Below, piece after piece: positions 7,904 to 44,147 of a stretch of DNA of 44,772 bases. The stretch is from assembly GCF_016632335.1 (NCBI RefSeq), contig NZ_JAEPBG010000030.1, positions 1 through 44,772 on the forward strand. The letters run 5' to 3'. Each line of letters begins with the position of its first letter. Within the stretch, counting starts at the first letter, position 1. This DNA comes from Noviherbaspirillum pedocola. Lineage in GTDB: Bacteria; Pseudomonadota; Gammaproteobacteria; Burkholderiales; Burkholderiaceae_D. The position numbers and the translations under genes were made by a program. Below the pieces are notes generated by a model. That model was not told the origin of the DNA. It made no database searches and worked only from the letters and a program-made list of their open reading frames with translations.

Positions 7904-7938
7904 GCAGGCGCTGCATTCGCTACCAGAAAGAAAAGAAC

Positions 7939-8766
7939 ATGAATTTCGCAACGAAACATCGCGTCTCAGCGGCGCTTTCGCTCCTGGCCGGTCTGACCGT
8001 GCTGGGCATGGCTGCCCCGAGCTACGCGCAAGTACAGATTCCGAATCCCCTGATGCGGCCGCAGCCGCCCAAGCTGACTCCGGTCAGCGATCCGCACAAT
8101 CTCAACAGCCCCTTGCCGCAAGGGTCGGCTCCGGCGCCCGCGCCGACTGCCTCCTCCCCCGCGAACGTCCCGCCGCCGGTCAGCTCGTCCGACTTCCTGC
8201 GCACGGCGCCGGCGAGCAGCGGCGAGAGCAAGCCGGATGCGACGGTCACCGAACTGCGCCAGCGCTTTGATGGCTATTACGTTTCTGCGACGGTCGGCGA
8301 TCAGGCCGTACTGCGCCGCGCCGCCACCGTCGCCGCTGCCGCGCCGCAAGCCAGCGCCGCTCCCAGCATCAGTGCGATGCCGCCACGCCCAAGCCAGTCA
8401 GCCCTCGGCACGGTCGGCAGGGCGGAAAGCATGGTCGTCCGGGACGGCGAACCCATCGAATTCCTCGGCTCTTCCGTCACGCTGGTGCCAAAGGTAAATG
8501 GCGGCCGCGTCTCGCTCTACTACTACAGCGACGCCGCGACGAATAAGAAAAAGCGCTCCCCGTCGGCCCAGGTGGTCTTCCTCGGCCAAGTGGAATCGCA
8601 AGCGCCCGCCACGACGGCGCAGATCGTCCTCGAAAAGCCCGATCCCGGCTTCAAGGCATCGATTTCTCCGGAAATCAAAGGCATGACAAACGGTAGCACC
8701 ACGAACGGCTCCCTTAGCCCGGCGATGAACGGCGTGCCGGGCCCGATCGCAATGCCCGCTTACTAG
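7939..8766 (+). CDS. Periplasmic pilus assembly protein, proline-rich
   Basis: This 275-residue protein has a clear Sec signal peptide with likely cleavage after SYAQ near residue 31. A long Pro/Ala-rich region up to about residue 150 is followed by a compact beta-rich domain (about 150-235) and a Gly/Asn/Ser-rich tail. It lies between the secretin and the ATPase, where R64 has pilO and pilP, so it is probably the periplasmic connector between secretin and inner membrane. I do not recognise a specific family. The ATG at 7939 is chosen because the signal peptide begins there; the frame is open 39 bases further upstream into the secretin stop. Confidence 0.75.
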   Translation: MNFATKHRVSAALSLLAGLTVLGMAAPSYAQVQIPNPLMRPQPPKLTPVSDPHNLNSPLPQGSAPAPAPTASSPANVPPPVSSSDFLRTAPASSGESKPDATVTELRQRFDGYYVSATVGDQAVLRRAATVAAAAPQASAAPSISAMPPRPSQSALGTVGRAESMVVRDGEPIEFLGSSVTLVPKVNGGRVSLYYYSDAATNKKKRSPSAQVVFLGQVESQAPATTAQIVLEKPDPGFKASISPEIKGMTNGSTTNGSLSPAMNGVPGPIAMPAY

Positions 8767-8775
8767 GACACGGCC

Positions 8776-10521: not shown

Positions 10522-11768
10522 TGTTCAATTCGCTGCGCAGCTATCACGTCGACTATCTGCTGAAGTCGAAAGCGGATGCCAACGCGGTGGAGGACCGCAT
10601 GGCGCCGGGCCATTTCCGTCATCGTGCGCTGATCGTCGGCGAGAGCGAGGAAGAAGTGGTTTCCGTGGTGCGCCGGCAGGGCGGGATTCCGGTCAATGTG
10701 GAAATGGTGCGCAACCGCTTCAAGTTCTTCAAGCGTGTCTCCGCAGAGTACAAGAAGCAGTTCCTGATGGCGATCCATTTCAACTGCGCGTCCATGTCGG
10801 CGGCGCGCGCACTGGAAGCCGTCATTGAATCGGATACGTCCAGCACCCGCGCCCAGTTGAACAGCGCGCTGGCGATCATCAAGCGCGGCGGCGGCTTCAT
10901 CGAGGCACTGGTCAGCCTGAACTTCTTCAATGAATCGACCCTCGCGATCCTGGAAGCGGGAGAGCGGACCGGCACGCTCACCGAGGCGCTGCACACCGCA
11001 GTGGAACACCTTGACGCCCGCGCCGTGAACAACAAGCTGATGACCGGCATGGCGTCGATGGCTGGCCTCGAGATCTTCATGGCGATGAGCACCGTGGTCA
11101 GTAATCGGTACGTGATGCTGCCGATGATGCTGGACAACATGCCGGTGGACGCCACGCCGGCGAAGACCCAGGAAATTCTGGACGCCATCCACAGCGCGAT
11201 GCTCTTCAGCGACGTGATGATGTGGGGAACGCTCGGCCTGTTCTTTGTCGTCATCATGGCCGTTTACGCCTATTTCGACCGGGATCAGGCGTTCCGCACA
11301 TGGGTCGACGACAAGGTGATGAGCGTGCCGGTGCTGAGCCAGGCCATCCTGCATTCCGCCGTCGCCAATTCCTTCCGGGTCGCGGCCTCGCTGGTCAAGG
11401 GCGGCGTCCACCTGAATGCCGCGATCGCCATCGCCGAGAAGAGCACGCGGGTGCCGGGCGTCATGCGCTACTGGGCACAGGCGCGGGTGCGTTCGGAGAA
11501 CGGCGACTCGGTGGCCGCGATGCTTTCGCAGTCGATGCTCGACAACTCCGACCGGCTGCTGGTCGGGGCGCATACCGACCGCGCGCAGCTGGCGACATCG
11601 TTCGCAACCATTGCGGAGCGCCGCAGCTACATGGCGAGCAAGGCCTCCAAGCGCTTCGGCATGGTGTCGTTCTTCGCCACCGCCGTCTATCTGACCGTGG
11701 CCGTTCTCGGCTCGATTTATGTGATCTGGATTCAGAACGAATCGCTTCTGTCTGGACTGAAAGGCTAA
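10521..11768 (+). CDS. pilR: Pilus inner-membrane platform protein, GspF/PilR family
   Basis: This 415-residue protein is the polytopic platform that interacts with the ATPase. Two repeated helical GspF-type domains (about residues 60-190 and 270-395) alternate with three hydrophobic segments: a strong one near residue 240 in the LGLFFVVIMAVYAYF stretch, a weaker one around 175-200, and a final one near 390-408. The start codon overlaps the ATPase stop by one base. The frame is open another 366 bases upstream inside the ATPase gene, but that extension is a shadow of pilQ. It corresponds to R64 PilR. Confidence 0.88.
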   Translation: MFNSLRSYHVDYLLKSKADANAVEDRMAPGHFRHRALIVGESEEEVVSVVRRQGGIPVNVEMVRNRFKFFKRVSAEYKKQFLMAIHFNCASMSAARALEAVIESDTSSTRAQLNSALAIIKRGGGFIEALVSLNFFNESTLAILEAGERTGTLTEALHTAVEHLDARAVNNKLMTGMASMAGLEIFMAMSTVVSNRYVMLPMMLDNMPVDATPAKTQEILDAIHSAMLFSDVMMWGTLGLFFVVIMAVYAYFDRDQAFRTWVDDKVMSVPVLSQAILHSAVANSFRVAASLVKGGVHLNAAIAIAEKSTRVPGVMRYWAQARVRSENGDSVAAMLSQSMLDNSDRLLVGAHTDRAQLATSFATIAERRSYMASKASKRFGMVSFFATAVYLTVAVLGSIYVIWIQNESLLSGLKG

Positions 11769-11770
11769 CC

Positions 11771-12616
11771 ATGATCAACCCGACTTCCCTGGCGCCGGTC
11801 TACTCGGCCATGATTGCCGGCCGCGTCGTGAACCATTCCGGCGATGTCGACAAGTCGATTTTCTTCATTGCCCGCGAGGTGCTCCATACTGACAAGATTC
11901 ACACCCTTGTTTCGGTCGATGCGAAAGCCAATCAGGCTTACTACTTTGCGGTGCCTTCTACGGCGCTGTCGCAGACCGGTTCCTTCGAGACCCCGCTGGC
12001 GGCCGCGTTCCCGGCGCATCCCGAGCATGCGGGCGACGGTGCCTACTATCTGGAGCGGGAAACGTTCGCCTGCGCCGTCATCAAGGATGGCGAGTCGTTC
12101 CAGTGTCTCACCAACAAAAGTGATGTGCTGCTGAACCACCTGCGCGACCTGGACCTGTCCATTCACCGGGTCGATGGCGCCGCGCCGTGGCGACTGGAAT
12201 CCGCGGTAGGGCGCTACCGTCGCTTCGCCGACGGCTTTTCGGAAAAGACGATCAAGCTGGCGGCCTCGGTGACTGCCGTCGCGGCGGTTGTCGGATTCGC
12301 AGCCATGCTGGCGCACAGCGTCATGTCCTCCCACCTGAAAAACACCAGCGCCAAGGCGACCGAGCAGCTCAACGCCATCGTCATGCGCATCGAGCACGCG
12401 TCCCCCCTGTCGCAGCAACTGGCGCAGTTCCAGAAGGTTTCCTCGACGGTCGTGCGCGCCGGCGGCTGGATCGATGCCTACCAGTTGAAGGGCAACGCCG
12501 AGACGTTTTCGGTCAGCCTGCCCGAATGGGTCACGCAGGACTACATCAAGGCGCTCGGCCAAGGCACCCGAGCCGACAAGGATGCGAAGAACAACGTCAT
12601 ACGGGTAGAAAAATGA
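11771..12616 (+). CDS. Bitopic inner-membrane pilus protein (PilO/PilL-like position)
   Basis: This 281-residue protein has a cytoplasmic N-terminal domain of about 160 residues. One membrane segment at about 161-188, rich in Ala and Val, leads into a periplasmic domain of about 90 residues. That shape resembles the PilM-PilN fusion or PilO-type assembly proteins of type IV pili, which link the cytoplasmic motor to the periplasmic ring. I cannot assign it to a named family with certainty. It follows pilR by two bases and overlaps the next gene by four bases (ATGA), so it belongs to the same translationally coupled block. Confidence 0.7.
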   Translation: MINPTSLAPVYSAMIAGRVVNHSGDVDKSIFFIAREVLHTDKIHTLVSVDAKANQAYYFAVPSTALSQTGSFETPLAAAFPAHPEHAGDGAYYLERETFACAVIKDGESFQCLTNKSDVLLNHLRDLDLSIHRVDGAAPWRLESAVGRYRRFADGFSEKTIKLAASVTAVAAVVGFAAMLAHSVMSSHLKNTSAKATEQLNAIVMRIEHASPLSQQLAQFQKVSSTVVRAGGWIDAYQLKGNAETFSVSLPEWVTQDYIKALGQGTRADKDAKNNVIRVEK

Positions 12617-13104
12617 ACAACTCACTGCTGAAGTGGAAATCGCTCGCCACGAAGCTTTCCTCGTCCGCTCGCTACGTCAGCGTCGCGACCCCGAGCGTCG
12701 TTGCCGTCGCGCTGCTTTCCTCGTGGTTTGCGTTCCACCAGGTGCAGCAGGTGCTGGACGACACGTCGAAGACGGTTGCGGCCAGAAACGATATCGCTGC
12801 CACCCAGGCCGCGACGGTAAAGAAGATGCCGCTGACAGCAGCTGGCTATGAGGAGGCACGCCGCCTAGTGGGAGAAGGCAATCCGGGCGTCGTAGTCAGC
12901 CTGAACAAGGACAAGTCCGCGCTCACCGTCTCGGTGTCCGATCCCGCGCTGATGCCGGAGTGGCTTTACCTCATCTCCACCATGCAGGCGTACCAGCCCG
13001 GCCTGATGTGGCAAGCCGAAACCATTTGCCTGAAGAAGTGCGAGGGCGGGGAAGCCGCCTTCGCCGAGCTGAAGGCATACACCCAACAGGTCGTGATCCA
13101 GTAA
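12613..13104 (+). CDS. Small bitopic pilus assembly protein
   Basis: This 163-residue protein has a basic cytoplasmic start, one membrane segment at about residues 25-45 and a periplasmic domain with a CLKKC motif near residues 136-140 that could form a disulphide. The start overlaps the previous stop by ATGA. Size and topology fit the small PilO/PilP-type partners that pair with a larger bitopic protein in type IV pilus machines. The specific family is not recognised. Confidence 0.7.
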   Translation: MNNSLLKWKSLATKLSSSARYVSVATPSVVAVALLSSWFAFHQVQQVLDDTSKTVAARNDIAATQAATVKKMPLTAAGYEEARRLVGEGNPGVVVSLNKDKSALTVSVSDPALMPEWLYLISTMQAYQPGLMWQAETICLKKCEGGEAAFAELKAYTQQVVIQ

Positions 13105-15228: not shown

Positions 15229-17769
15229 ATGCATCCTGAACATCGCAACATGGCTACTTCTCCTGCATTTTCCTTGACCCGCCGGGTCGTTCTCGCCGCG
15301 TTCACCATCGGCGCCACTGTGCTTGCACCCCTCGCATCCGCCGCTTCTGCCAACGAAGTGCTGGGCGTGGCCGATATGACGAGGTCCGCGACGCAGAAGA
15401 TAGCCGTCCAGCAGGCGATCATCGCGCTGGCCTCGGAGAGCAGCGACAGCGACGCGGATGGTTTCATCGAGCCGCCCGCGATGGACACGACTGCTGGCGG
15501 CCCGGCTGGTGGCGGGTTCATCCCGTCCACCAGCGCAGCGCCGAAAACCGATTCCTATGGCATGAAGTTAGGCTATTGCGCATGGGACAACGGATCGACA
15601 AACACCAGTACCGGCAGGATCTCCGGCAGCACCAGTTCTCCAGGCGCACCCGTTCTCGCCATCATCTCCGCTGGCATCGACAACACGTTCAATACGACCT
15701 GCGCGTCCCTCGCGGCTGGTGGCGGTGCGGCCGGCGACGATTTTGTGATTGCCTATAACTCGATCCAGATCCAGCAAGGCAACTCGGGCACCCTGTTCTT
15801 TGGCGACCCGGTTGCCTCATTGTCGGTGCTGCAGGGACTGAGTGCGGCCACCCTGAAGGATGGCCAGCTGCGCCTGACCAAGGATACGAACGCGCTGTAC
15901 CGCTGGAATGCCGGCACATCCGTCTGGACGCCGGTCGGTGGAACTGGCTCGAGCATGCCGTGGCTCACCGATAACAACAATAACTATTACTCGAACAACC
16001 AGATTTCGATTGGCACGAAGTCGCCCCTCGCCATGTTCCAGGTCCATGCCGGCGCGTTGGGCACTTCCGCGGGTAATACGCTGGACATTTCAATGGCCAG
16101 CCACACCAATGGCAACTACACGATGCTGCGCACGTTGGCCTACCGGTTTGCCAATGGCGGAGGATGGGATACAGCGTCCACCCGCCTGCAAATGAAGGTC
16201 GATAGCACCGACATGGGCTATATCGAATTCAATCCCGCTGGTGCACAGGGAGGCATTGTGTTCGGAACCGGCATGTCGACGAATGGACCAGGCGCAATTC
16301 CCGAGCGCATGCGCATCTCGCAGGACGGTCGCGTGGGCGTCAATCTGACCACTCCGTACGCCGGCGTTGCAGTCAATTATTCCGGCCTCATCGGCAATGC
16401 CAATCAGTATCCCTATGACGTTGGTGCCGGAACGATTGCGGCTGGTAAGTCGATCTACAGCTATGGCACGATGTGTATCGGGAACTCAAATGCCGACTGC
16501 TCGGGCACTTATGGCCTGTACATGTATTACGGCGGGATCAATATCAACCAGAATAATCAATATCCCACCAATCTGAGCCAAGGATACAACGGTGCGCTGA
16601 AGGTTACGACGCCAAGTGGATGGGTTGATATCGGGTCAGAGAACAGTGGCTGGGCGCACTTCGTCACCGATCGAAATCTCTTTTATTTCAATAGAGAATT
16701 ACAGGCCGAAACTGCCTTAAGGGTTTACAACACCAACACCTATTTCACAAGGACGGACGGTATCATCAACGGCTATCGGGTCTGGACGGAACAGCCGTGG
16801 GCCGGCCGTACAGTGGCGTCCAACAGTTACGGCTATGATTTTTGGTCCGCGCCGCTGCAAATCAGAGAATACAACTATGAAGTCGGTAACGGCGGTGACA
16901 TAAACCGCGCACCGCGCTTAGCCTTTCACTGGGGCCAGGTTGCAGCCGCTATGATCAGGTTGAACTACGATGCAGTTATTGAACTCGTAAATCAGTCCGG
17001 CACCGACTATGCAAGCATGCGCGGAGGGAATTTCTGGGGTTATGGTTTCTACCAGTATTCCGATGCGCGGCTGAAGCGTGATATCGCCCCGATTTCGAAC
17101 GCGCTTGCCACGATCGCCAACCTGCATGGCTATCGATATTATTTCGATCATGAAAACCATCCGGACCGCAAGCTGCCTACTGGCCGCCAGATCGGATTCA
17201 TTGCGCAGGAAATGGAGAAATGGGTCCCTGAACTGGTCACCACCGGAGGAGATGGATATAAGACGGTCAACTACGCGCAGATGACGGCTCTCCTCCTGGA
17301 AGGTATCAACGAGCAGCAGGCCGTGCTCCAGCACCTGACCAAGAAGAACCAGTCCACCTTGTCCTTTGCGATCCCGACCATCGAAGGTAATGACGCACAC
17401 TTCAAGCGCATCGAGACGGAGAAGCTGACCGCGGCGCAGATCGAAGCCGAGCAGGCGCGGATCAAGAAACTGAAGGCAGAGGAAATCGAGGCCGAGCGCA
17501 TCAGCCTCGTGAAGACGGGCGAAGCGGAAGTGTTCGTGAATGCGGGAAGCTTTCAGCCGATCTTCGCGCCGGCAACCGGCACGCAGTACATGGTCAATGC
17601 CTTTGCGGAGGACGGGAGTATTGCGATTGCATCGGTTACCGCGACCGGCAAGCGCCTCATCGTGACTCCTATCAGCGGCTCAGGGATCGATGTGCAGGCT
17701 TGGGGAAACCAGATCGGTGTGCTGGCTGAGAACAAGACGGTCAAGACCACCTGGATTCGTACACACTGA
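15229..17769 (+). CDS. pilV: PilV-like pilus tip adhesin with C-terminal Peptidase_S74 chaperone domain
   Basis: This 846-residue protein has a Sec-type signal peptide (about residues 16-40). An N-terminal region follows that contains YCAWDNG, IISAGIDNTFNTTC and GDD motifs, like those of PilV-type tip proteins and some tail fibres. The middle is long, beta-rich and rich in Gly, Asn and Tyr. The C-terminus has the Peptidase_S74 pattern: YSDARLKRDI with the putative catalytic Ser611 and Lys616, then GFIAQEMEKWVPELV and a VNYAQMTALLLEGINEQ helix. A coiled-coil and beta tail of about 130 residues completes it. In phage fibres S74 domains drive trimer assembly and then cut themselves off just before the serine. 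The start is one base after the minor pilin; an ATG seven codons later also fits. Confidence 0.85.
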   Translation: MHPEHRNMATSPAFSLTRRVVLAAFTIGATVLAPLASAASANEVLGVADMTRSATQKIAVQQAIIALASESSDSDADGFIEPPAMDTTAGGPAGGGFIPSTSAAPKTDSYGMKLGYCAWDNGSTNTSTGRISGSTSSPGAPVLAIISAGIDNTFNTTCASLAAGGGAAGDDFVIAYNSIQIQQGNSGTLFFGDPVASLSVLQGLSAATLKDGQLRLTKDTNALYRWNAGTSVWTPVGGTGSSMPWLTDNNNNYYSNNQISIGTKSPLAMFQVHAGALGTSAGNTLDISMASHTNGNYTMLRTLAYRFANGGGWDTASTRLQMKVDSTDMGYIEFNPAGAQGGIVFGTGMSTNGPGAIPERMRISQDGRVGVNLTTPYAGVAVNYSGLIGNANQYPYDVGAGTIAAGKSIYSYGTMCIGNSNADCSGTYGLYMYYGGININQNNQYPTNLSQGYNGALKVTTPSGWVDIGSENSGWAHFVTDRNLFYFNRELQAETALRVYNTNTYFTRTDGIINGYRVWTEQPWAGRTVASNSYGYDFWSAPLQIREYNYEVGNGGDINRAPRLAFHWGQVAAAMIRLNYDAVIELVNQSGTDYASMRGGNFWGYGFYQYSDARLKRDIAPISNALATIANLHGYRYYFDHENHPDRKLPTGRQIGFIAQEMEKWVPELVTTGGDGYKTVNYAQMTALLLEGINEQQAVLQHLTKKNQSTLSFAIPTIEGNDAHFKRIETEKLTAAQIEAEQARIKKLKAEEIEAERISLVKTGEAEVFVNAGSFQPIFAPATGTQYMVNAFAEDGSIAIASVTATGKRLIVTPISGSGIDVQAWGNQIGVLAENKTVKTTWIRTH

Positions 17770-18618: not shown

Positions 18619-18805
18619 CAAATTTTGGACGAAATGAAAAAGAGTATGGACGATTTGCGTAGGCTCTCGCTTAACCGGGCCGGTGTTCTTGTCGATAACA
18701 CCATAGCGTTTATCCATCCTCAACATCGCAGCGCGGATCGTGACGGGAATTCCCGGCTCGCGTGAAGCCAGGACGGTGTGCATGCCCAACAACAGGAAAA
18801 AAATC

Positions 18806-20422
18806 ATGAACACGCTGTCATCCCTCAAAATCGGGACCAAACTCGCGCTCGGCTTCGGAGTCGTCGTGGCGCTGATGCTCGCGCTGGCCGGCTTCTCGCT
18901 GTTTCACATTTACAGCATCGATGCGGTCATCGGGAACCAGAACAAGGTCCGCACGGAGAAGCTCGAGCAACTCTATCTGGCGCGCGAAGCCCTGGACCAG
19001 ACCGGCATCGCCGCTCGCAACGCATTCATCTTCACGGATGAGGCCGATGCGAAGCGCGAACTCGATATCCTCGACCAGCAGAAGGCAACCTATTTGAAGG
19101 CGCTGGACGCGATGGCGCCGGTATTCAAAGGCGATGCCGCGTTCGACAAGGCGCAAAAAGGCTTGCTCGCCATGGCGCAGGAACTCACGCGCCCACGCAA
19201 ATACCGCGACGCTGGACAGATGCGCGAATACGGTGAATTCCTGGTCAAGGAATGCAGCCCGTTGCGCCGCCAGATCGTCGCTGATATCGATGTGCTGCTC
19301 AAATCGGTACAGCGCGACGTGGATTCCGTTAGCAAAAACGCTGCGAATGAGGTTGGCAGGACCGCCACCATCATCCTGATCGTCTCCGCAGCTGCTGCGG
19401 TGCTCGGCATCGTCGTCGGCATTCTCATCACCCGCGGACTGCTCAAGCAGCTCGGTGGCGAGCCCGTTGAAGTTGCGACCATCGCCCGGCATGTCGCTGC
19501 AGGCGATCTGGCAATCGCTGTAACGGTCAAGCATGGCGACCGCTCCAGCATCATGCACGCAATGCAGGAGATGCGCGACAGCCTCGCACGCCTTGTCGGC
19601 CAGGTCCGCGCAGGGACAGACACCATCGCAACCGCGTCGGCCGAGATTGCCGCCGGCAATATGGACCTGTCCTCCCGCACCGAGCAACAGGCGTCTTCGC
19701 TGGAAGAAACCGCGTCGGCGATGGAAGAACTGACCTCGACCGTCCGGAACAATGCCGACAACGCCCGGCAAGGCAATACGCTCGCCTTGTCCGCGTCGAC
19801 CATCGCGGTCAAGGGCGGCGAAGTCATGTCCGAGGTGGTCGGCACGATGGAATCGATCAATCAATCCGCGAAGAAGATCGCCGACATCATCAGCGTCATC
19901 GATGGCATTGCGTTCCAGACCAACATCCTCGCGCTGAATGCGGCAGTCGAAGCTGCGCGCGCCGGCGAGCAAGGGCGTGGTTTTGCCGTGGTGGCGTCCG
20001 AAGTGCGCAGCTTGGCGCAACGCAGCGCGGCCGCGGCGAAGGAGATCAAGGGCCTGATCGAGGATTCGGTCGACAAGATTGGCGCTGGAAGTGCCCTGGT
20101 GTCGAATGCGGGCGCGACCATGGACGAGATCGTCGACAGCGTCCAGCGTGTCACCGCCGTCATGGCGGACATCCTGAACGCATCGCAGGAACAAAGCGCG
20201 GGCATCGAGCAGGTCAATCAGGCGATCGGCCTGATGGATAGCGCCACCCAACAGAATGCCGCGCTCGTTGAGCAGGCCGCCGCGGCCGCCAGTTCACTTC
20301 AGGAGCAGGCCAGCCAGCTTAGCCACGCCGTCAGTGTCTTCAAGGTCCGGGATAACGTTGTTGCTGGCGCTGCCGGCGCTCCCCTACAATCCCGCGTCCT
20401 TCCATTGGAATATACGAAATGA
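18806..20422 (+). CDS. Methyl-accepting chemotaxis protein
   Basis: This 538-residue chemoreceptor has the standard layout. There is a first membrane segment (about residues 12-36) and a periplasmic four-helix-type sensor (37-184). A second membrane segment (185-209), a HAMP domain (about 210-263) and a long signalling helix pair follow. The conserved tip, with [20 protein letters not shown], is near residues 367-386. The sensed ligand is unknown. AGGAAAA lies just upstream of the ATG at 18806; the open frame from 18740 is rejected because this start matches the family. It overlaps cheW by ATGA. Carriage on a transmissible element next to a pilus suggests signalling to pilus or motility. Confidence 0.93.
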
Positions 20423-35703: not shown

Positions 35704-36648
35704 TCAAAAACAGTCAAAAAGCCAAGTTTGTCCCACGCCTACAGTCCGACCTACGTGACGCTTCGGAAAATCATGCAAAAAACGAACTCGAGATTTTTCT
35801 TTCTCGGGCAGATATTGGTAGAAGAGTGTAGCGCCTAACGTCATTGGGCTCGTACCTAATAATATTATATCAATTGCAGAAGAATCCTTTATCAACTGTT
35901 GAAGCAAAAGGATTGTATCGGAAGGAGACGCCGCAGAAATCGTTCGCCGATTGAATTCACTAACCGGCAATTCTTTCAGAAAAGACTCATTCGCTAGTCG
36001 GCATTTTAATTGGCCATCTAATATGTAAGGCGGATCACCAACCACTGATATGCAATCTTCACGTATCCAATTATAGTGCTGCACAAACTTCTGGGCACGG
36101 TCAGAGTCAAAACCAAGAAAAAAAACATGCCGCTTTGGATGGTTGTCCTTTGCGATAGAGGGAAAGTCCAAACCAGTAATCCAGCCCGGGGGCTGGCGAA
36201 TGCCATAAGTTTCAATCGGGGGCAACTCCTCCTTGATCGGCTGTGGATAATTATCTGGTGCTGTGAAGCCACATACAACTAGAATATCCGGGCGCGCAAG
36301 TAAGCAAGGCAGCACAAAAAAACAATACTCCCAATCTTTGTCTGTCAGATCAATCAGCACGGTGGTAATTCCACCCTTCTTCACTGGGATTTCCTGCCCA
36401 ATCATCTTAGAGAGATGCGGCCAACCCACTTCAACTCGCGAACTACTCACCGAAAAGGAAAAGTTTAGATTACGCGTATCGGTACACTCTATAGCAATTT
36501 TCTTTGAAGTGACTGGGCTAAGTTGAAGAACCCGCTTTGCTCGATCTTCGCTATGATCCCCAACGGGGGAACTGATGACAATATCCACGTCCACGAGCCA
36601 TTCACGCAACTCTTCCTCATTACGAGTCGACCTTGTCTTTAGCTTCAC
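35704..36648 (-). CDS. Unknown 314-residue protein, last gene of candidate defence operon
   Basis: I do not recognise the family. The protein has alternating beta and helical segments like an alpha/beta (Rossmann-type) fold. Notable stretches are HVFFLGFDSDRAQKFVQHY near residue 175, VVGDPPYILDGQL just after, and an LLGTSPMTLGATLFYQYL segment near 260-277. The last two look like conserved sites. There is no signal peptide or membrane helix. Translation starts at a GTG overlapping the ATPase stop by four bases (GTGA), so it is coupled to the large ATPase and probably forms a complex with it. It could be an effector or target-sensing subunit. Confidence 0.8.
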   Translation of the reverse strand: MKLKTRSTRNEEELREWLVDVDIVISSPVGDHSEDRAKRVLQLSPVTSKKIAIECTDTRNLNFSFSVSSSRVEVGWPHLSKMIGQEIPVKKGGITTVLIDLTDKDWEYCFFVLPCLLARPDILVVCGFTAPDNYPQPIKEELPPIETYGIRQPPGWITGLDFPSIAKDNHPKRHVFFLGFDSDRAQKFVQHYNWIREDCISVVGDPPYILDGQLKCRLANESFLKELPVSEFNRRTISAASPSDTILLLQQLIKDSSAIDIILLGTSPMTLGATLFYQYLPEKEKSRVRFLHDFPKRHVGRTVGVGQTWLFDCF

Positions 36649-39614
36649 AAAAGCCTTTCTTGCGATGAGGAGTCAAATCCTGAATTTACGGCATTCAAGT
36701 ATTGCCGTTGCAGTGCTGCATACTCAGCTTGAGATCCCATGAATAAAATACGTAGTTCCTCACCAGAAAGCGTACCAAGTTTTTTCTTGCGACGAGGAGA
36801 AAAACCATAGTGCGGGGCAAAGCACGGATTTAGCTGCCAGTCGTCGAGCTGAAGATCAGCGTCTGATTTCTGTTTATTACCGGGCAGACGGAGCAAAATC
36901 GATTCAGCATAGGCGGCCTGGAATAAGTCGGTCCAAACTTCGTTTATTTCAGTGTCTTTTGTAACGCTAAAATGATTAATTTCAGGCTCACTTTGCGTGG
37001 GAGTCCGGTTCATAACAGCAAGCAATTGTCCCAATCTGTCAGTGAAATCCAAAAGCTCTCTAGAATACTTGGGTAGAGACCGAATGACGCCACGATAACC
37101 ATCCGCAGCCTTACGAAGCGCATCAGTTTGTATGGAAACAGAAATTGGAGGTGCAGCGGTCTCCCCCTTTCGTGGACTCGCAAACCATTCTTCAACGATT
37201 GACCGGCAAAGTTCTAGAAAGGTTCGGACATTGCGACCTGACAGCAAAGATACTGTCTCAGTTCCTGCATACATCACTGCTTGTGGTCGGCTATACAGGC
37301 GCGCGAGCCAAAAAAGTGTACCGCGCTCGTAGTTGTGGCGCCAGTCCTTTGCTTTAGATGTATTATTTTCAATTTCATAAATCACGCTGTCTGGATCTTT
37401 ACCACTTCCTTCTCGCTTCCTTAGGCGGCCTTGATTCATTATTACAACCCCCAAGGCTTTAGTTAGAATATTTGGCTCCCGATCGAACCACGCAAAGATC
37501 CCGGCCATATCAGCGGGGAAAAATTTAGATATCCAATCTCGTAATGGCTTGTCTTGCTTGGTGTGGGCAATACGCCTTGCTTGATCCGAAGCGGTTTCGG
37601 TCGCAAGTAGCTCGTCGAGTGTAGTGACACCAAGCAAAGAAAAGAAATCGTTATTTTCCAGATATTTTTGCGCAATATTCTGCAAATGGCCCGTAAACTG
37701 GATAGTGTCAATACTCTCATCTAAATTAACGAGATTGAAATCGTGTATGGGCTGAATCTGTTGACCGTCCGCAAGTGTAGCTGTTGTTCTAAGACCAGCT
37801 TTCCCATGCTTGCAAAGCAATCGGTACGTAACGTGGTCGCTTTCTTTTATTTGCTTAATACGGCTGTTAACGACTTTTTGTTGGTCCTCTGTGTAGTGCT
37901 CATACTCATCGAGTATCACAGCAAAATAATGTTTTCCAAATTTGCTGTCTGGAGATTCAGTTAGCTGCTCGACCAAAAGTTTAAGCAATATGTTGCTTTG
38001 CAACCTGGCAGGCTCAGGAGTGTTTTCTGGATTGTTGACGTAATATCGCATCGAAGCTAATCGGTCTTCAATTGCAATAAGCAGTGCGTCCATCGTGGGA
38101 TCAATATTGCGATATTCTGGCCCGAACTCTCTGATTAAAACTTGATATAGCTTTTTCTCCCTATCCGCGCTTTCACACCAAACGGCCAACCCACCAAACT
38201 CATCAAATGCGTGTAAAGCTTTCCTTAGAACTAGAAGGTCAAAGAACTGAGAGAACAACATATTGTAGTGGCCTTGTTTGTCCCGCGTTGCCGGGACAAA
38301 CACTTGTAACAGATCAATATCGATGCGAAGATAAAGCCCCAAGTAGGTGGGCGCTAAGTCGGGACTTGGCACGACTCCTTTCTGTCTAATGGCACCTGCA
38401 ATACGTTCGACGCTGAAATACCTGCCCAACATGGTCTTACCGCTTCCGCGCGCACCTTGGAATATGACAGGCATGAACGTACTCATTGCCCGAACAAGCT
38501 CTTTACCTGGGTCAATAAAATACTGACCTATTTGTTCATGATTGGCATAGTCCGCTCTGAGTAAAACAAATGGATTAGTTGGTGTAGCGGTCTTAACTGA
38601 AGGAGAATCTATCGGCGTTATATATTTTTCTAACAGCTTCTCTGCTAATTGGCCTATGTTTTGCGCATAGTCCTTCTCGCGCGCAGGCGAAGTGGGGCCT
38701 ATTGAGTCGACGATCGTCTCTTCACCAAGCGCCAGACGCGGGATGTAAGGTAAGCGTATTTGGAAACCTTTAAAGTCCGGCCACGAGCAAATGGTCTGGA
38801 CTTCGGTAAGCCATTTTCTTCTTTCGCTGTCAGCAAGCTCGGGTTCTGGCGAGCCAACTAAAATACATCTCTTGCGTCCATATTGCTCAATAAATCCGTC
38901 GCTTTTTAATCTACCGACAAGTTCTTTAGTGCCCTTAATGTTTTGGCGATTAAAGCCACTTACAATAACAATTGTCTTCGCCAATGTCATCGCAACATAA
39001 AATGGATCACTGAATCCAGTACGCGAGTCTATCAATATGAAATCAAAACCGTAACCATTAGGTTCATCTTTTGAGGTAAGTCTAGCTAGTATATCTGCCC
39101 AAGCGGCATCACCTGCAGAAGAGTAGAAATTCTCCCAGCTAAAATGATTCAACGCGTCGAGATAGGTCTTTCTTTTCTTCTCGTGATTAAGGTCTCCGGG
39201 CCCTTCACCGTTGCCCCATAATGAATTGCTTGCTGGGATTATCCATAGATTACCGACGCCAGAACTGTCTTCTTTTTTTGCGTGCCTTATAGTCACTGGA
39301 GTCGCATATTCTTCGAGAATCCATTTAGGAAAGCTTGTCCTATTTTTCTCATCGTCTGAGGTCGCAGTGTAGAGAGAAAGAAGCTCAATCAAGCCATAAG
39401 GCGCTGGAGCAACGACCTCGCGGAAAGGAGAAATTTCATGCAAACCAGGAGCTTCCAGGTCAAAGTCCAGCATGAGCACTTTTTTCCCTTTTTTGGCCAG
39501 CGCAATAGCAGTATTGGCAAGCGAAAGTGATCTGCCCACGCCTCCCTTATGGGAATAGAAGGCAATGATTTGTGGGTCTTGCGTCATGATATGTTCCATT
39601 GAGCTGTTGTCCAT
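36645..39614 (-). CDS. Large double-ATPase protein: KGGVGR ParA-like domain fused to AAA-type P-loop domain
   Basis: This 989-residue protein carries two nucleotide-binding domains. The first (about residues 15-330) is ParA/MinD-like, with a deviant Walker A HKGGVGRSLSLAN near 22-34 (arginine instead of the usual lysine or glycine-lysine), VLMLDFDLEAPGL and ILIDSRTGFSDP. The second (about 345-700) begins NPFVLLRADY, has Walker A GARGSGKT near 387-394 and a Walker B-like VILDEYE near 566-572. It resembles ORC/CDC6-type STAND ATPases. A 290-residue C-terminal domain is not recognised. The ATG at 39614 overlaps the previous stop by one base; a GTG one codon earlier is possible. It is the likely motor or signal-transducing core of the operon. 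Confidence 0.85.
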   Translation of the reverse strand: MDNSSMEHIMTQDPQIIAFYSHKGGVGRSLSLANTAIALAKKGKKVLMLDFDLEAPGLHEISPFREVVAPAPYGLIELLSLYTATSDDEKNRTSFPKWILEEYATPVTIRHAKKEDSSGVGNLWIIPASNSLWGNGEGPGDLNHEKKRKTYLDALNHFSWENFYSSAGDAAWADILARLTSKDEPNGYGFDFILIDSRTGFSDPFYVAMTLAKTIVIVSGFNRQNIKGTKELVGRLKSDGFIEQYGRKRCILVGSPEPELADSERRKWLTEVQTICSWPDFKGFQIRLPYIPRLALGEETIVDSIGPTSPAREKDYAQNIGQLAEKLLEKYITPIDSPSVKTATPTNPFVLLRADYANHEQIGQYFIDPGKELVRAMSTFMPVIFQGARGSGKTMLGRYFSVERIAGAIRQKGVVPSPDLAPTYLGLYLRIDIDLLQVFVPATRDKQGHYNMLFSQFFDLLVLRKALHAFDEFGGLAVWCESADREKKLYQVLIREFGPEYRNIDPTMDALLIAIEDRLASMRYYVNNPENTPEPARLQSNILLKLLVEQLTESPDSKFGKHYFAVILDEYEHYTEDQQKVVNSRIKQIKESDHVTYRLLCKHGKAGLRTTATLADGQQIQPIHDFNLVNLDESIDTIQFTGHLQNIAQKYLENNDFFSLLGVTTLDELLATETASDQARRIAHTKQDKPLRDWISKFFPADMAGIFAWFDREPNILTKALGVVIMNQGRLRKREGSGKDPDSVIYEIENNTSKAKDWRHNYERGTLFWLARLYSRPQAVMYAGTETVSLLSGRNVRTFLELCRSIVEEWFASPRKGETAAPPISVSIQTDALRKAADGYRGVIRSLPKYSRELLDFTDRLGQLLAVMNRTPTQSEPEINHFSVTKDTEINEVWTDLFQAAYAESILLRLPGNKQKSDADLQLDDWQLNPCFAPHYGFSPRRKKKLGTLSGEELRILFMGSQAEYAALQRQYLNAVNSGFDSSSQERLL

Positions 39615-40471
39615 CACTCAGATGCATGAATAGTTGGGCGTGGTATTCGGGATCGAGGTTTACCCGCAACAATACTGGGGCGCATGCCTGTAATTAACGC
39701 CTCTATATCCTTTACGGTCAATGAAACCGACTCTGGCGCGCCTGCTTTCGTTAGAAGCTTAACCATGCGATTGAAGTAACCTTGAAAACGTTCAGCCGTA
39801 ATTGGTTTATGGGAAATCCATTCTGGAATTATCAGCCGGCTGTTAATATCACGACTGCCGGAGGAGATCCAAGCTCGCGCGAGCATAGTTAGAGCTCGAA
39901 GAATGATTGTTGAATCGAGGACACTGAGCTCTCGTGTCTGACTTCTGGATGCGGTCACTAACATAGCCTGCAATGCTTCAATATGAGGTGCAAGGCTCAC
40001 CTCTAAGGTATTATCTTCATCTGCAGACTTGATTAATATAGCCAAATTCGTGACATCTATTTGTCGAGATAAAAGCGAAAATATCAGATCCTTATTAGGG
40101 ACAAGCTTTTTTTGTGCATCGTGCATCCGGCCAACAACTTCGCGAAAAGCGCCGCTATATATCTTCTCCGAACCTATGTTGATATAAATTGATTCAATAA
40201 GGTTTACTGTTCGCTTAAGGACCTCAGCGCTATCATTTGACATTGGAGGCAGGCAGTTTTCTAAAACCTCTGCTACTCCTACCCAGAAAGAAATACGTTG
40301 ATTTTCATTATCAGCATAAGCGCTATAGAAGGCATCATATAGCCACTGCTGAGGAGGTTCAGAATCGAACGTCGGTGGGCCTGCATCGGCGGAAAGCAAT
40401 GTCCCATCTTTCTCTGTCAGGCGAAGCTGAACAGCCCGGACTATCTCATCGTGGTTGGTAAAGAATGCCAT
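39614..40471 (-). CDS. Unknown helical protein of candidate defence operon
   Basis: I do not recognise this 285-residue protein. It is mostly helical and soluble, with heat-repeat-like alternation of apolar residues over about 40-215 and a basic, Pro/Arg-rich tail (PRSRIPRPTIHASE). No catalytic motif stands out. AGGAAG lies nine bases before its ATG. Its stop overlaps the start of the double ATPase (TGATG), which implies stoichiometric production and suggests that it is an adaptor or scaffold for that ATPase. Confidence 0.8.
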   Translation of the reverse strand: MAFFTNHDEIVRAVQLRLTEKDGTLLSADAGPPTFDSEPPQQWLYDAFYSAYADNENQRISFWVGVAEVLENCLPPMSNDSAEVLKRTVNLIESIYINIGSEKIYSGAFREVVGRMHDAQKKLVPNKDLIFSLLSRQIDVTNLAILIKSADEDNTLEVSLAPHIEALQAMLVTASRSQTRELSVLDSTIILRALTMLARAWISSGSRDINSRLIIPEWISHKPITAERFQGYFNRMVKLLTKAGAPESVSLTVKDIEALITGMRPSIVAGKPRSRIPRPTIHASE

Positions 40472-40484
40472 CTGGCTTATCTTC

Positions 40485-41291
40485 CTATAAGTGCCCGAGC
40501 TTTTTTATACGAGATTCGACTGCTCGAAAATAGCCGTCGCCAACCTCCCGAAAATCGATCCAGTCTGTAACGTCGGTATCACTCCGATGAGAAACCCTTA
40601 CATCATCTAACTTGAAATTATCTCTTTTTAAAGAGTCTTTATGCACCCACCACTCTTTGCGTTTTAATTCGCCCGTTTGTAGTACGCGTGCTCTTCCGTA
40701 TGGAATTCTTTCGCTTTCTGTTTCCGGCGATGGATCGAAGTACCAATTATAAAAAGCATGAACCCATGTGGGTTTGAAAACTGGTATCGGTTTCGCGAGA
40801 GAGAAATTGAAAACTATTATCGGACTTTCTTGAGTCATACGGCCGAAGCTGAAGAGGCCTAGTTCGTCAGCCAGTTCACAGATTTGAGCATAATTGGAAT
40901 CGATGTTTGCTCTTTCGGTGAACCATAAACCCCGCTTTCCCTCTACGTAATCCGAGAAATGAGCAGCCAACTCTAAATCGTCATCGGAATTGATATCACC
41001 TATGCCAAGCCAATGCGCTCGAGTTAGATGGGTACACTTGGTTCCCGCCGGCATTTCGAACATAACTCCTTGTTTCCATACGCTTGGGTCGGCATGTAGT
41101 AATTTTGCGCACTCTACTGCGTCTACAGCATTCTTCATCCTATCGCTCGTCGACGCTTGGATTTCTTTATCTGTATATAAAGCATTAAAATGTAATAGCG
41201 CCGCCTCACGCAAATCAGAAGGTAGCGTGTTCCAGTCGACTGTGGCTAGTGCCTGCTCGTATGCAGCCTCGTTTTTACTCCAGTAGCTCAT
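40485..41291 (-). CDS. Unknown protein of candidate defence operon
   Basis: I do not recognise this 268-residue protein. It is rich in Trp and His, with several WxH and HxS patterns. Residues 90-190 alternate short strands with aromatic residues. An IVFNFSLAKPIPVFKPTWVH stretch and a closing HRSDTDVTDWIDFREVGDGY segment may be conserved. No signal peptide, membrane helix or known nuclease motif is clear. It lies 66 bases after the methylase gene and 13 bases before the next gene on the same strand, so it belongs to the operon. Confidence 0.78.
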   Translation of the reverse strand: MSYWSKNEAAYEQALATVDWNTLPSDLREAALLHFNALYTDKEIQASTSDRMKNAVDAVECAKLLHADPSVWKQGVMFEMPAGTKCTHLTRAHWLGIGDINSDDDLELAAHFSDYVEGKRGLWFTERANIDSNYAQICELADELGLFSFGRMTQESPIIVFNFSLAKPIPVFKPTWVHAFYNWYFDPSPETESERIPYGRARVLQTGELKRKEWWVHKDSLKRDNFKLDDVRVSHRSDTDVTDWIDFREVGDGYFRAVESRIKKLGHL

Positions 41292-41357
41292 TGCCGTGCC
41301 AATTTTGTAATTACAATAAATAGTCGAATAACAAATACAATATGCAAATCAAAGCAC

Positions 41358-42572
41358 CTAGTAGTTGCTAAGTGCTATGTCAACTGGCAAAGTCGCACAC
41401 ATTAATGCGCGTTTTGGGATGAATTTGGCGCAGCTCCCGCCTGCCAATGATCGTCGCCACATTATTCCTTTCTCCGAGGAAATGAATTGCCATAGTCGAG
41501 ATCTTAAATGGTCAGGGGATGCAATCTTGAAAACACAGTCGGTTATAGGACGTACGCCTTCGACTACGATAGCCGCGTTGTCGAGACATCTCCCGACCCG
41601 GGGAATTAGGATATCCCCGGGTTCAGCCATGACCAGTGAGGCGTCGTTCTTGAACATTCCGCTTGGAAAGCAAACTTCTTGCGAAGAATGTTTTCTAAAA
41701 GACGTCGTATGAAAGAAACTTTCCGAGATCTTTTCGAGCTCATTCGCAGAATGCCTTCCCCGTCGTGCTGATGTACCAAGGGCAGTCAAAGTAACTGCGT
41801 TTTCATCTGCACCTGACTTTGAAGAACACAATAATGATGACAAATCTGCAGCATCGAACCACCCGTTATAAGTTACGGTCAGTCCCTCTTCTACTGTGTA
41901 ATATCTTGCTTTCCGACGAGGTCGCGCCTTGTCGAAAATGAATGCCGCAGCCTCTACCTCAGCACTTCGGAAAGCTTTTGCCGGGAGACGTAGCACCTCG
42001 TGCAAACCGAATGAGTTGAGGAAAACTTTTAATACCGCATTGTCTTTGCCATACTTAAGTGCTTTCAAAGGCATGAAAATTGCCGCTTGACCTTGACTGC
42101 TAAGGCATGAGATGGCTTGAATAGCAAATGCGAGCTCCGCTCTATAGCTTTTGGCTTGTATATTACCGAAGTGGTCTTCAATATATGATAAAGATGGCCC
42201 CGAGAATGAAATGAAAGGCGGATTAGAGATCGCGTAGCTAAATTCTCCGTACTCCTTTCGCATACGATCTGCGAAATTTTTCTTTAAAACGGAGCGTTGA
42301 ACAAAATTACAGCGAGCATCTAGTTGTGCAAACTTCGCTCCTATTGAATCTATATCAACGAGTGTTGCGGACGTTTCTGAATGCTGTTCCAAAAATGCGC
42401 TTGCTAAAGCGCCTGGGCCACATCCTAGGTCAATAACTTTCCCGTTCCCGTTTCCACTAACCTTCCTGAACCTTGAAATAATGAGTCTTGCGAGTAGTGG
42501 AGGAGTCGCAAATTGGCCAAGACGAGGGTCGCCTGCAGTGCCTGCTCTCCGCCATGCAGATGATTTTTTCAT
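41358..42572 (-). CDS. DNA adenine-N6 methyltransferase with HsdS-like C-terminus
   Basis: This 404-residue protein opens with RLGQFATPPLLARLI, the G-x-x-x-T-P lead-in of gamma-class N6-adenine methylases. It has motif I DLGCGPGA at residues 48-55 for S-adenosylmethionine and motif IV NPPF at 117-120, the catalytic motif. The C-terminal 100 residues look like a target-recognition half of HsdS, with PGDILIPRVGRCLDNAAIVV, a CVFKI strand and a closing ALMCATLPV. It is thus a compact single-chain methylase plus specificity unit, about half the length of type IIG or PglX proteins, and it has no nuclease domain. It is first in the operon. It probably marks host DNA or senses target DNA for the system. 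Confidence 0.85.
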   Translation of the reverse strand: MKKSSAWRRAGTAGDPRLGQFATPPLLARLIISRFRKVSGNGNGKVIDLGCGPGALASAFLEQHSETSATLVDIDSIGAKFAQLDARCNFVQRSVLKKNFADRMRKEYGEFSYAISNPPFISFSGPSLSYIEDHFGNIQAKSYRAELAFAIQAISCLSSQGQAAIFMPLKALKYGKDNAVLKVFLNSFGLHEVLRLPAKAFRSAEVEAAAFIFDKARPRRKARYYTVEEGLTVTYNGWFDAADLSSLLCSSKSGADENAVTLTALGTSARRGRHSANELEKISESFFHTTSFRKHSSQEVCFPSGMFKNDASLVMAEPGDILIPRVGRCLDNAAIVVEGVRPITDCVFKIASPDHLRSRLWQFISSEKGIMWRRSLAGGSCAKFIPKRALMCATLPVDIALSNY

Positions 42573-43862
42573 TACAGTTCTTGAATTTTTGCAATGTTGT
42601 TCTTGGCAGAAAGGCTAGTTCGCAGGTTGTAGCTATACATGGAGGTTCTTGGCAAAGTGACTTGATGGCAACTGTTTTGATGGAAGTTTACACAGAAATC
42701 TTACTCGGTGCTGATCATTCGGCGATGTCGACAAGGCAAGCGACCAAGCCGGGGACGTAGTCCGGATGGACTCGAGGCGCTTCCAGTCTTCAAGCCGAGT
42801 GAGCAGCGCCCATAGAGGTTGTTGAACACGTGGATGCCTCGACAACCGGTAAGGTGTCGACTAGAGATCCGCCTCTTCCCTTTGGCTCGGGAATAGGAGT
42901 CGACAGCGTGTGAAGTTGCCTCTCTCGTGCACGCGAATGAACGCGTATCTAAATGGTGATGCGCTAGGACTTACATCCTCTCTACATGCGACCCACTGAT
43001 GGGATAGCGCACAATAGTGTGCGACACTACCGCAATTTCATTTTAGTGTCAGAATCGTTTGAGCTAAACTTAGCTAAGTAAAATTACACATTACGCTGAA
43101 CGAAAATTATATTGATCTATTGCAATACGACGGATCTCCGAGCCGCATAAATCTTGATAAGTTATTTCCCTCTTGCCCAAAATTTCGATTCGGTACGGTG
43201 CCAAAGCTGATGATGCATTCAATATTCGAAGGAAGGTCGAGGCTTGATAACACGGCGTAGCATCATATGAAAGGGAGTGCTTTCATACAACCGAAATGGA
43301 AGCACACTCGCGATACGCAAAACCATAAACATACGCCGTCGCAATTTTGTAAATTCTCAGAGAGCGACTGGTTCGGTGACTATCATTATGCAAACATAAA
43401 TAAGTAAAAATTTTATCGTCAAGTGATAAACCGCACTCGTCCACCGTGATTTTTATGGAAAATTTTTTCCATATGGCATGACATTGTATAAAATTCGACC
43501 TTCCTATTTGAAGGTCTGATCGTCCGCTTTCGCTGCTTTCCGGTCGCACCCACAGCCACTCTGTGCTGCCGATGCGGTTGAATGACACCCGTTCGAGCCG
43601 AAGGCGCACGATCCAATATTGGCCTTTTCGCTCTATTATTTAGAACGTTATTCGCAAGTGGCAAAAGTCGTTACAAGAATTCACATCAAGATTAGTGAAA
43701 ACATTGTAATTCGCGTAGACCTATTCCTACAAATGTCTTACACTCCTGCACGGTTTTGCTCGAATACATATTGACCAAGTATGAAACGCGCAAGGCAATT
43801 GCGAGTCAAAATGATGAGAGCTATTGCTGAGACGCTGCATTTTTCTAGTAGAGGAGTATAGA
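42573..43862. other. AT-rich 1.3-kb region without recognised genes
   Basis: This stretch has open frames (for example 43283-43609 on the minus strand, 108 codons), but none with both a ribosome binding site and a recognisable sequence. It must hold the promoter of the minus-strand operon at its left end and the promoter of the H-NS gene at its right end; I could not pick boxes with confidence. A small hairpin (CGCACA / TGTGCG) lies at 43008-43023. Decayed insertion-sequence DNA or an unannotated RNA is possible. Confidence 0.5.
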
Positions 43863-44147
43863 ATGGCTACGTATAAAGAGATTCAAAATCAAATCGCTGA
43901 ACTGCAACGCGCAGCCGAAGAAGCGCGCAACCAGGAGGTGCAAGGCGCCATCGATCGGATCCGTACACTAATGGCGGATTACGGTTTGTCCGTTGACGAT
44001 ATTGCCGGTAGCAAAAAACGCGGCGGCAAAGTTAAGGGTGGGGGCAAAGTTCAGTTTCGTGACAATGATGGAAATACCTGGTCGGGACGTGGCCGCATGC
44101 CCGGCTGGCTGCACGGTAAGGACAAAGAGCAGTTCCGCGTGGCGTAA
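43863..44147 (+). CDS. H-NS family nucleoid protein
   Basis: This 94-residue protein is a short betaproteobacterial H-NS. An N-terminal coiled coil (about residues 2-45) mediates dimerisation, a basic Gly/Lys-rich linker follows, and the C-terminal AT-hook-like domain contains DGNTWSGRGRMPGWL, which binds the minor groove of AT-rich DNA. GAGGAG lies six bases before the ATG. H-NS homologues on mobile elements silence AT-rich cargo and lower the fitness cost of carriage. Its position next to the AT-rich operon and spacer fits that role. A hairpin follows the gene. Confidence 0.93.
   Translation: MATYKEIQNQIAELQRAAEEARNQEVQGAIDRIRTLMADYGLSVDDIAGSKKRGGKVKGGGKVQFRDNDGNTWSGRGRMPGWLHGKDKEQFRVA

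Follow-up and report, generated by a model that had tools for sequence, protein, structure and literature searches.

A methylase, double-ATPase and CARF-like operon in Noviherbaspirillum pedocola: by sequence, a variant of the modular ORC-CDC6-like / CARF6 class

The window analyzed here is the whole stretch of 44,772 nucleotides from Noviherbaspirillum pedocola, contig NZ_JAEPBG010000030.1, positions 1 to 44,772 (assembly GCF_016632335.1). As an earlier note on this DNA had described, positions 35704-42572 hold a unit of five open reading frames, all on the minus strand; in the order of transcription these are:

41358..42572, minus strand: P0005, an N6-adenine DNA methylase of 404 aa (PF02384, PADLOC MTase_II, motifs)
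40485..41291, minus strand: P0004 (P4), an orphan 268-aa protein specific to what is called type B below (homologues at the same place in other loci)
39614..40471, minus strand: P0003 (P3), an orphan, poorly conserved 285-aa protein (4-base overlap with the ATPase gene)
36645..39617, minus strand: P0002, a fused double ATPase of 990 aa from a GTG start (NF047398, PF24389, motifs)
35704..36648, minus strand: P0001, a CARF-like protein (PADLOC CARF6) of 314 aa (CARF6 match, AF2 model)

The successive junctions measure +66, +13, -4, and -4 bases. The last three genes had been said to overlap by 1 to 4 bases; two junctions do overlap, each by 4 bases. The ATPase, given earlier as 989 residues, is 990 residues long when read from GTG, and both of its ATPase domains are supported. 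The described AT-richness is evident, with a GC content of 0.454 for the operon versus 0.59 for window positions 1-34500, and the H-NS neighbor is present as an H-NS-like protein at 43824-44147 (plus strand), approximately 1.25 kb from the operon. The conjugative element postulated around this copy was not confirmed: none of the ten window ORFs scanned matched a conjugation family. Six of them matched Pfam families (topoisomerase, VWA, chemoreceptor, endosialidase chaperone, CoiA N-terminal, and HD) and four matched none. In the genome of the window, TrbI has two matches, both on contigs other than the window's own, and the sole match to TIGR03760 lies on another contig and falls below the cut-off. 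Searches of the window for tRNA and Rfam families found nothing, and between 35000 and 44000 promoter-like sites (15 vs 12.7 in shuffles) and terminator-like sites (13 vs 9.1) are about as numerous as in shuffled sequence.

The assignment of P0005 as an adenine methylase is borne out by its match to PF02384 (N6_Mtase; E 1.8e-12) and by the catalytic motifs I (DLGCGPG) and IV (NPPF). Residues 18-391 also match the PADLOC MTase_II model PDLC03285 over nearly its full length (E 4e-28). The C-terminal region is a putative target-recognition region, since the C-terminal part of the methylase of a Klebsiella relative matches type I specificity models (E 3e-4).

P0002 is built of two ATPase domains. 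Residues 15-237 match NF047398, the KGGVGR-motif variant ATPase (E 5e-37), and residues 12-268 match PADLOC PDC-M28B (E 1.4e-24). Residues 348-947 match PF24389 (ORC-CDC6-like) with an E of 4e-108 and 363 bits against a cut-off of 27. Motifs are found at positions 24 (KGGVGRS), 388 (GARGSGKT), and 568 (ILDEYEH), and ATPase motifs are present in all four type-B ATPases. Family matches and motifs thus support an N-terminal KGGVGR SIMIBI-type (MinD/ParA-like) domain followed by a C-terminal ORC-CDC6-like AAA+ domain. A search for a kinase domain in P0002 gave no match, with a weak AAA overlap (E 0.0024). The KGGVGR domain is akin in sequence to MinD, ParA, and Soj, and the PHROGs match is to a ParA-like partition protein. 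Both observations would suit a role in element maintenance, in which the KGGVGR and ORC-like ATPases serve the partition or replication of a mobile element and the methylase marks its origin; we regard this as improbable in the light of the relatives considered below.

P0001 lies directly downstream of the ATPase gene, with a 4-base overlap. It had been listed as an unknown alpha/beta protein, a description that no longer applies, as it matches the PADLOC CARF6 models (best E 4e-15). Its AF2 model, calculated from 10 alignment rows, has a pLDDT of 83.0 and a pTM of 0.86 and reveals two Rossmann-like lobes. The best Foldseek match in the PDB is Csa3 (E 2.7e-3, probability 1.00). Among the 50 Foldseek matches listed, 11 have a probability of at least 0.90, none of them with an E below 0.001; ten are CARF proteins, Csa3, Csm6, Card1, and Can2 being represented, and one is the unrelated FabI. 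TM scores of the fold matches are about 0.25-0.39 (about 0.2-0.3 by query length), again with no E below 0.001, the SAVED proteins aligning over approximately 320 columns with a TM of 0.35-0.39. By E, places two to five go to low-probability matches to polynucleotide kinase and a chloride transporter, and a BFVD fold search returned weak matches headed by a DUF2493 protein. Taken with weak sequence scores, these matches suggest a fold that is likely CARF/SAVED-like. In the 10-row alignment, the conserved residues R36, D100, T102, G179, R184, G265, and D293 follow the strands of both lobes. Such a pattern would be compatible with P0001 acting as the effector, either a ligand-gated or a ring-nuclease-like enzyme, with P4 as the sensor. 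We consider this exchange of roles unlikely: P0001 has no fused effector domain and no nuclease family match in Pfam, NCBIfam, or PADLOC, and its highest-probability fold matches are proteins with CARF ligand-binding domains. No nucleotide-messenger enzyme was recognized among the operon proteins. Among the four type-B genomes none has a SMODS synthase and none a Csm1-type Cas10 above the cut-off; weak Cas10 matches occur in three of them, the genome of the window not being one of these.

The earlier description of two unknown proteins holds for P4 and P3, neither of which has a credible family match. At the limits used, P4 matches no family in Pfam, NCBIfam, PHROGs, or PADLOC, and P3 none in Pfam, NCBIfam, or PHROGs; a lone PADLOC match of P3 to LmuA (E 0.021) was discounted. 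Their relatives are likewise without Pfam or NCBIfam matches, save one P3 homologue (TIP120, E 0.35), and comparison of both proteins with PDB sequences gave no credible match. A divergent PRTase was ruled out for either, their profiles being unrelated to the PRTase-CE profile (probability 0.1%). P4 homologues occupy the same place in four other loci (L036/L053, L051, L052, and L083); P3 homologues are found in the same loci and were identified mainly by position. The five-sequence alignment of P4 contains 18 invariant columns, and that of P3 three, the start included. The AF2 model of P4 (pLDDT 36.7) is unusable. Because P4 and P3 are both without a fold, naming P4 the type-specific effector is a guess.

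A tblastn search of plasmids with P0002 matched 169 records, 129 of them from Klebsiella, and the Klebsiella matches listed align with residues 354-973, the ORC part. Klebsiella KPC plasmid NZ_MT810376 carries, in tight order, a methylase, a 297-aa protein, an ORC-CDC6-like ATPase, and a 303-aa protein. Family matches identify the 297-aa protein as PRTase-CE (PF24390; E 3e-50) and the 303-aa protein as CARF6 (E 5e-47). Here we label the combination of ORC-CDC6-like ATPase (PF24389), PRTase-CE, CARF6, and N6 methylase as type A, and that of KGGVGR-ORC fusion ATPase, P4, P3, CARF-like protein, and methylase as type B. The genome of the window itself carries a second copy, of type A (C3), on another contig. 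Further type-A loci were found on a Diaphorobacter plasmid, on Cupriavidus plasmid pRK1-1, on IMG/VR contigs, in four E. coli genomes on plasmid copies that are nearly identical, and in a record deposited under the name Acinetobacter phage MD-2021a, where neighboring genes such as efp and cstA look chromosomal. In the Klebsiella KPC plasmid and the E. coli copies, the operon is annotated as hypothetical proteins and a methylase only. Of 369 genomes of the class, 10 have a PF24389 match above the cut-off, as against none of 14 control genomes.

A total of 24 loci, chosen by ATPase match and not at random, were opened, and some of these also went into the profiles used. They include six of the nine other genomes above the PF24389 cut-off, three of 175 plasmid records, one of two phage records, and the two copies of the window's genome; the remainder came from the genome-contig, viral-contig, and order-genome searches. 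Within this ATPase-selected set, 22 loci have a CARF6-like gene next to the ATPase (it is absent in G968 and L092), which makes it the most constant ATPase partner, a further point in favor of P0001 as effector. In 20 loci the unit contains or adjoins a methylase (none was found in L037, L039, L040, and L092); in L041, L005, and L056 it is on the opposite strand. The third partner is exchanged: HD-CE replaces PRTase-CE in L037, and a protein kinase is fused to the ATPase in L038 and L039. In L092 a calcineurin-like partner was suspected by eye upstream of the ATPase; a PDB sequence search with it was without match. On this comparative evidence, a core of ORC-CDC6-like ATPase and CARF-like protein, usually with a methylase, can be taken as shown to be common to loci with swapped partners. 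The absence of known kin claimed earlier thus does not stand: the ATPase belongs to PF24389 (E 4e-108), P0001 matches CARF6, and both form part of a recurrent core that in the loci opened is found most often with PRTase-CE. These family assignments place the five genes, as a variant, in the ORC-CDC6-like / CARF6 class.

The settings of the relatives bear on element maintenance. Type-A relatives reside on plasmids, as such a role would have it. Against it, the same core stands with PRTase-CE, with HD-CE, or with a fused protein kinase; it is also present on contigs of 594 and 894 kb (G184, G963) that are probably chromosomal; and the genome of the window carries two different types.

Type-B relatives were recovered with an alignment of P0002 and one relative (A1), searched against genome contigs; P0002 as a single sequence had found nothing there. 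Three of the matches are to the full-length fusion ATPase: one in the acidophilic iron oxidizer Ferrovum myxofaciens P3G (L051, operon copy at 6443-12924), one in a Methylobacter MAG (L052), and one in an uncultured gammaproteobacterium (L053, a contig also numbered L036). A further match was confined to the KGGVGR part. In all three the order of genes is P4, P3, ATPase, CARF6, methylase, whereas in the window the methylase comes first. All five genes therefore stand together in four lineages; the order of the four core genes is constant, and the methylase may precede or follow them. With this recurrence in three lineages besides that of the window, the set is more than a chance assemblage. 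With starts as chosen by the analyst, genes overlap at nine of 12 core junctions over the four type-B loci. The methylase ORF of the Methylobacter MAG starts at motif I, its N-terminal part missing in frame, and in the Ferrovum contig a TrbI conjugation gene adjoins the operon. The genome G968, from the same order, has P4, P3, and the ATPase spread over two contigs, both of which break off within the ATPase gene. Approximately 33 bases beyond this gene follows a methylase ORF that lacks its N-terminal part, and a CARF6 gene was not found; this copy is thus decayed or misassembled.

Few genomes carry the set. The full-length type-B ATPase was found only in the window's own genome among 398 genomes of the phylum, and among 399 genomes of the order in its own, in G1040 (a match identical in coordinates and score to the Ferrovum copy), and, split, in G968. 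P4 homologues occur in two of 380 genomes of the class, both within the set. From these surveys we conclude that type B is rare but real. Used as a single-sequence query among 195 relatives, P0003 found its own genome only. Against plasmids there was no DNA-level match, and P0001, P0003, and P0004 had no tblastn match. No type B was found in viral contigs, one such scan giving type A only.

Trees were calculated for 16 of the 24 loci, four of type B and 12 of type A (G968, L084, L085, L037, L038, L039, L040, and L092 were left out). The type-B ATPases (ORC part) fall on one side of a branch with the 12 type-A proteins on the other (support 100/100). The type-B CARF6 proteins likewise lie on one side of a branch (100/99), with the program's long-branch warning at the window protein, and earlier LG+G4 trees give the same split of types A and B. 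In the methylase tree the window sequence clusters with the type-A methylase of Diaphorobacter (95/94), a join of two long branches, and the AU test did not reject a single type-B methylase clade (p 0.147). The core may therefore be co-inherited and the methylase exchangeable. It is also conceivable, if doubtful, that the methylase is an orphan neighbor and that the unit consists of P4, P3, ATPase, and CARF-like protein, forming a signaling or stress system blind to DNA methylation. Its grouping with a type-A methylase, its change of position between the window and the remaining three type-B loci, its opposite strand in three loci, and its lack of recognition in four of 24 all agree with such independence. 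On the other hand, it belongs to or adjoins the unit in every complete type-B locus (four of four) and in 20 of the 24 loci opened, across plasmids, viral contigs, and genomes.

No PADLOC system was matched by the whole set, in keeping with the mismatch to named systems claimed earlier; that claim also holds for BREX, DISARM, and restriction-modification, whose tested features are absent in the five proteins. The closest comparison is type A itself: its ATPase belongs to the same family (profile-profile probability 100, 602 columns), and the CARF6-like family, the kind of methylase, and the order of ATPase then CARF6 are all shared. It differs in that the type-A ATPase (625-691 aa in the loci opened) has no KGGVGR domain, and in that a PRTase-CE gene takes the place held in type B by P4 and P3; PF24390 matched none of the five window proteins. 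P0001 matches the CARF6 models of two PADLOC systems (CARF6--CARF_CARF_CARF and CARF6--CARF_STK_AAA), as does the CARF6 gene beside the kinase-ORC ATPase of L038. However, P4 is not matched by these systems, P3 (E 0.021) and the ORC domain (E 0.0024) are matched marginally, and the kinase domain fused in CARF6--CARF_STK_AAA has no match in P0002. The match of the PADLOC PDC-M28B models to P0002 (E 1.4e-24) is confined to the KGGVGR part; the ORC part and the other four proteins are unmatched. Type-A PRTase-CE resembles the retron type III-A PRTases, matching PADLOC PRTase_III-A, whereas the five window proteins have no PRTase or retron match. DISARM comprises a SNF2-type helicase, DUF1998, and PLD proteins, matches to all of which are absent among the five. 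Unlike type I and II restriction-modification systems, P0001-P0004 have no nuclease match (HsdR or type II REase), and P4 could be a nuclease of new fold. The window methylase matches mad2 of MADS (E 1.5e-17), as does the Klebsiella type-A methylase, and two ATPase relatives match mad8 weakly (E 1.4e-3 and 4.7e-5), but no other mad component is found among the window proteins. BREX combines an N6 methylase with BrxC, an ATPase of the ORC/Cdc6 clade that is proposed to scaffold a sensing complex (PMC12839542). The window shares with it the N6-adenine methylase and a large ATPase of the ORC/Cdc6 clade. It differs in that the five proteins have no PglZ, BrxA, BrxB, or BrxL match and in that the ATPase matches PF24389 and not DUF6079 or DUF499; at E up to 1, neither PglZ nor BrxC (DUF6079/DUF499) is listed for any of the five.

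Database names already cover the class (PF24389, PF24390, PF24391, and PADLOC CARF6). No PADLOC, Pfam, or NCBIfam model matches P4, and P3 has marginal matches at best; these collections therefore do not cover KGGVGR fusion, P4, and P3 in combination. Likely sources of the names CARF6 and PRTase-CE are Makarova 2020 and Burroughs and Aravind 2020. Among the literature matches listed there is no description of the system, and prior mention, notably in those two works, is possible. In the literature searched the name PRTase-CE was not found and CARF6 appeared in an unrelated context only; KGGVGR is not mentioned among the matches listed, which does not imply its absence from print.

Taken together, we put at roughly 55% the probability that the operon is the type-B variant of a modular, methylation-linked, ATP-driven anti-invader system, its role against phages or plasmids being one that we infer. 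The mobile settings of relatives, on a conjugative IncFII plasmid, on IMG/VR contigs, and beside TrbI in Ferrovum, speak for this reading. In such a system the methylase would mark host DNA at its recognition sites as self. The double ATPase, with P3 as adaptor, would assemble on unmethylated incoming DNA, much as BrxC is proposed to act as a scaffold in BREX. This ATP-driven assembly would activate the CARF-like protein, as a sensor of a nucleotide-like ligand or as a transducer, and P4, the type-specific part, would execute or trigger the block. As no nuclease is recognizable, cleavage by restriction would be a less likely outcome than a block of replication, exclusion, or shutdown of the cell. 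More tentatively, type B might be an immune machine of its own, in which a SIMIBI-type (MinD/ParA-like) switch fused to an ORC-like DNA-loading ATPase reads the methylation of incoming DNA, the CARF-like protein relays the alarm with no need of a Cas10 or CBASS synthase, and P4 receives it as an effector with a new fold.

The role for which CARF proteins are chiefly known is the reception of cyclic oligoadenylates in type III CRISPR systems. In this operon, where no messenger synthase was recognized, a CARF-like protein is tied to an ORC-like ATPase and a methylase. If the anti-invader reading is right and the unit defends, it raises the questions of how methylation status becomes an alarm and of what the CARF-like protein senses. 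The swapping of partners (PRTase-CE, HD-CE, kinase, or P4 with P3) around one core amounts to a natural experiment. Since the type-A operon is carried by a Klebsiella KPC plasmid and by plasmid copies in E. coli, the class may shape the combinations of plasmids and phages that coexist.

The genome that carries the five-gene operon holds a second system, which is of type A, the related clusters in which an ORC-CDC6-like ATPase (PF24389) is accompanied by PRTase-CE (PF24390), CARF6 and an N6 methylase. It lies on another contig (G000:C3), and the operon's own contig additionally encodes an endosialidase-chaperone protein and a chemoreceptor.

L005 5611-10748 (G000:C3): type-A system whose methylase gene is divergent; the other genes encode PRTase-CE, an ORC-CDC6-like ATPase and CARF6
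Window 15229-17769: endosialidase-chaperone (Peptidase_S74) protein
Window 18740-20422: chemoreceptor

The genes around the ATPase vary among the related loci. A Vsr endonuclease gene adjoins the HD-CE locus, an HsdM-like gene the unit of L084, and a phage integrase that of L085. The ORF upstream of the ATPase in L092 resembles a metallophosphatase by eye, an identity that a PDB sequence search with this ORF did not confirm.

L037 1-4419: HD-CE (PF24391) gene replacing PRTase-CE, adjoining the ATPase/CARF6 pair
L084 3457-11326: PRTase-CE-like/ATPase/CARF6 unit preceded by an N6_N4-type methylase
L085 2035-8473: the same arrangement
L092 3194-4402: candidate metallophosphatase ORF, upstream of a PF24389-like ATPase

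Two further type-A loci come from phage or viral records. The phage label of the first is doubtful, because the flanking genes (efp, cstA, tRNA-Val) look chromosomal; in the second, the remaining type-A genes are open, unlike the split PRTase gene.

L043 7006-11829: type-A unit (record classed as an Acinetobacter phage)
L088 4084-4971: PRTase gene broken into two reading frames (IMG/VR contig)

The type-A operon also occurs complete on a Klebsiella KPC plasmid, where it is annotated solely as hypothetical proteins and an N-6 DNA methylase.

L004 5774-10876 (NZ_MT810376): complete type-A operon

At 99% identity or above, this operon is found on plasmids in four of 5426 E. coli genomes, for two of which the source is given as "conjugation assay."
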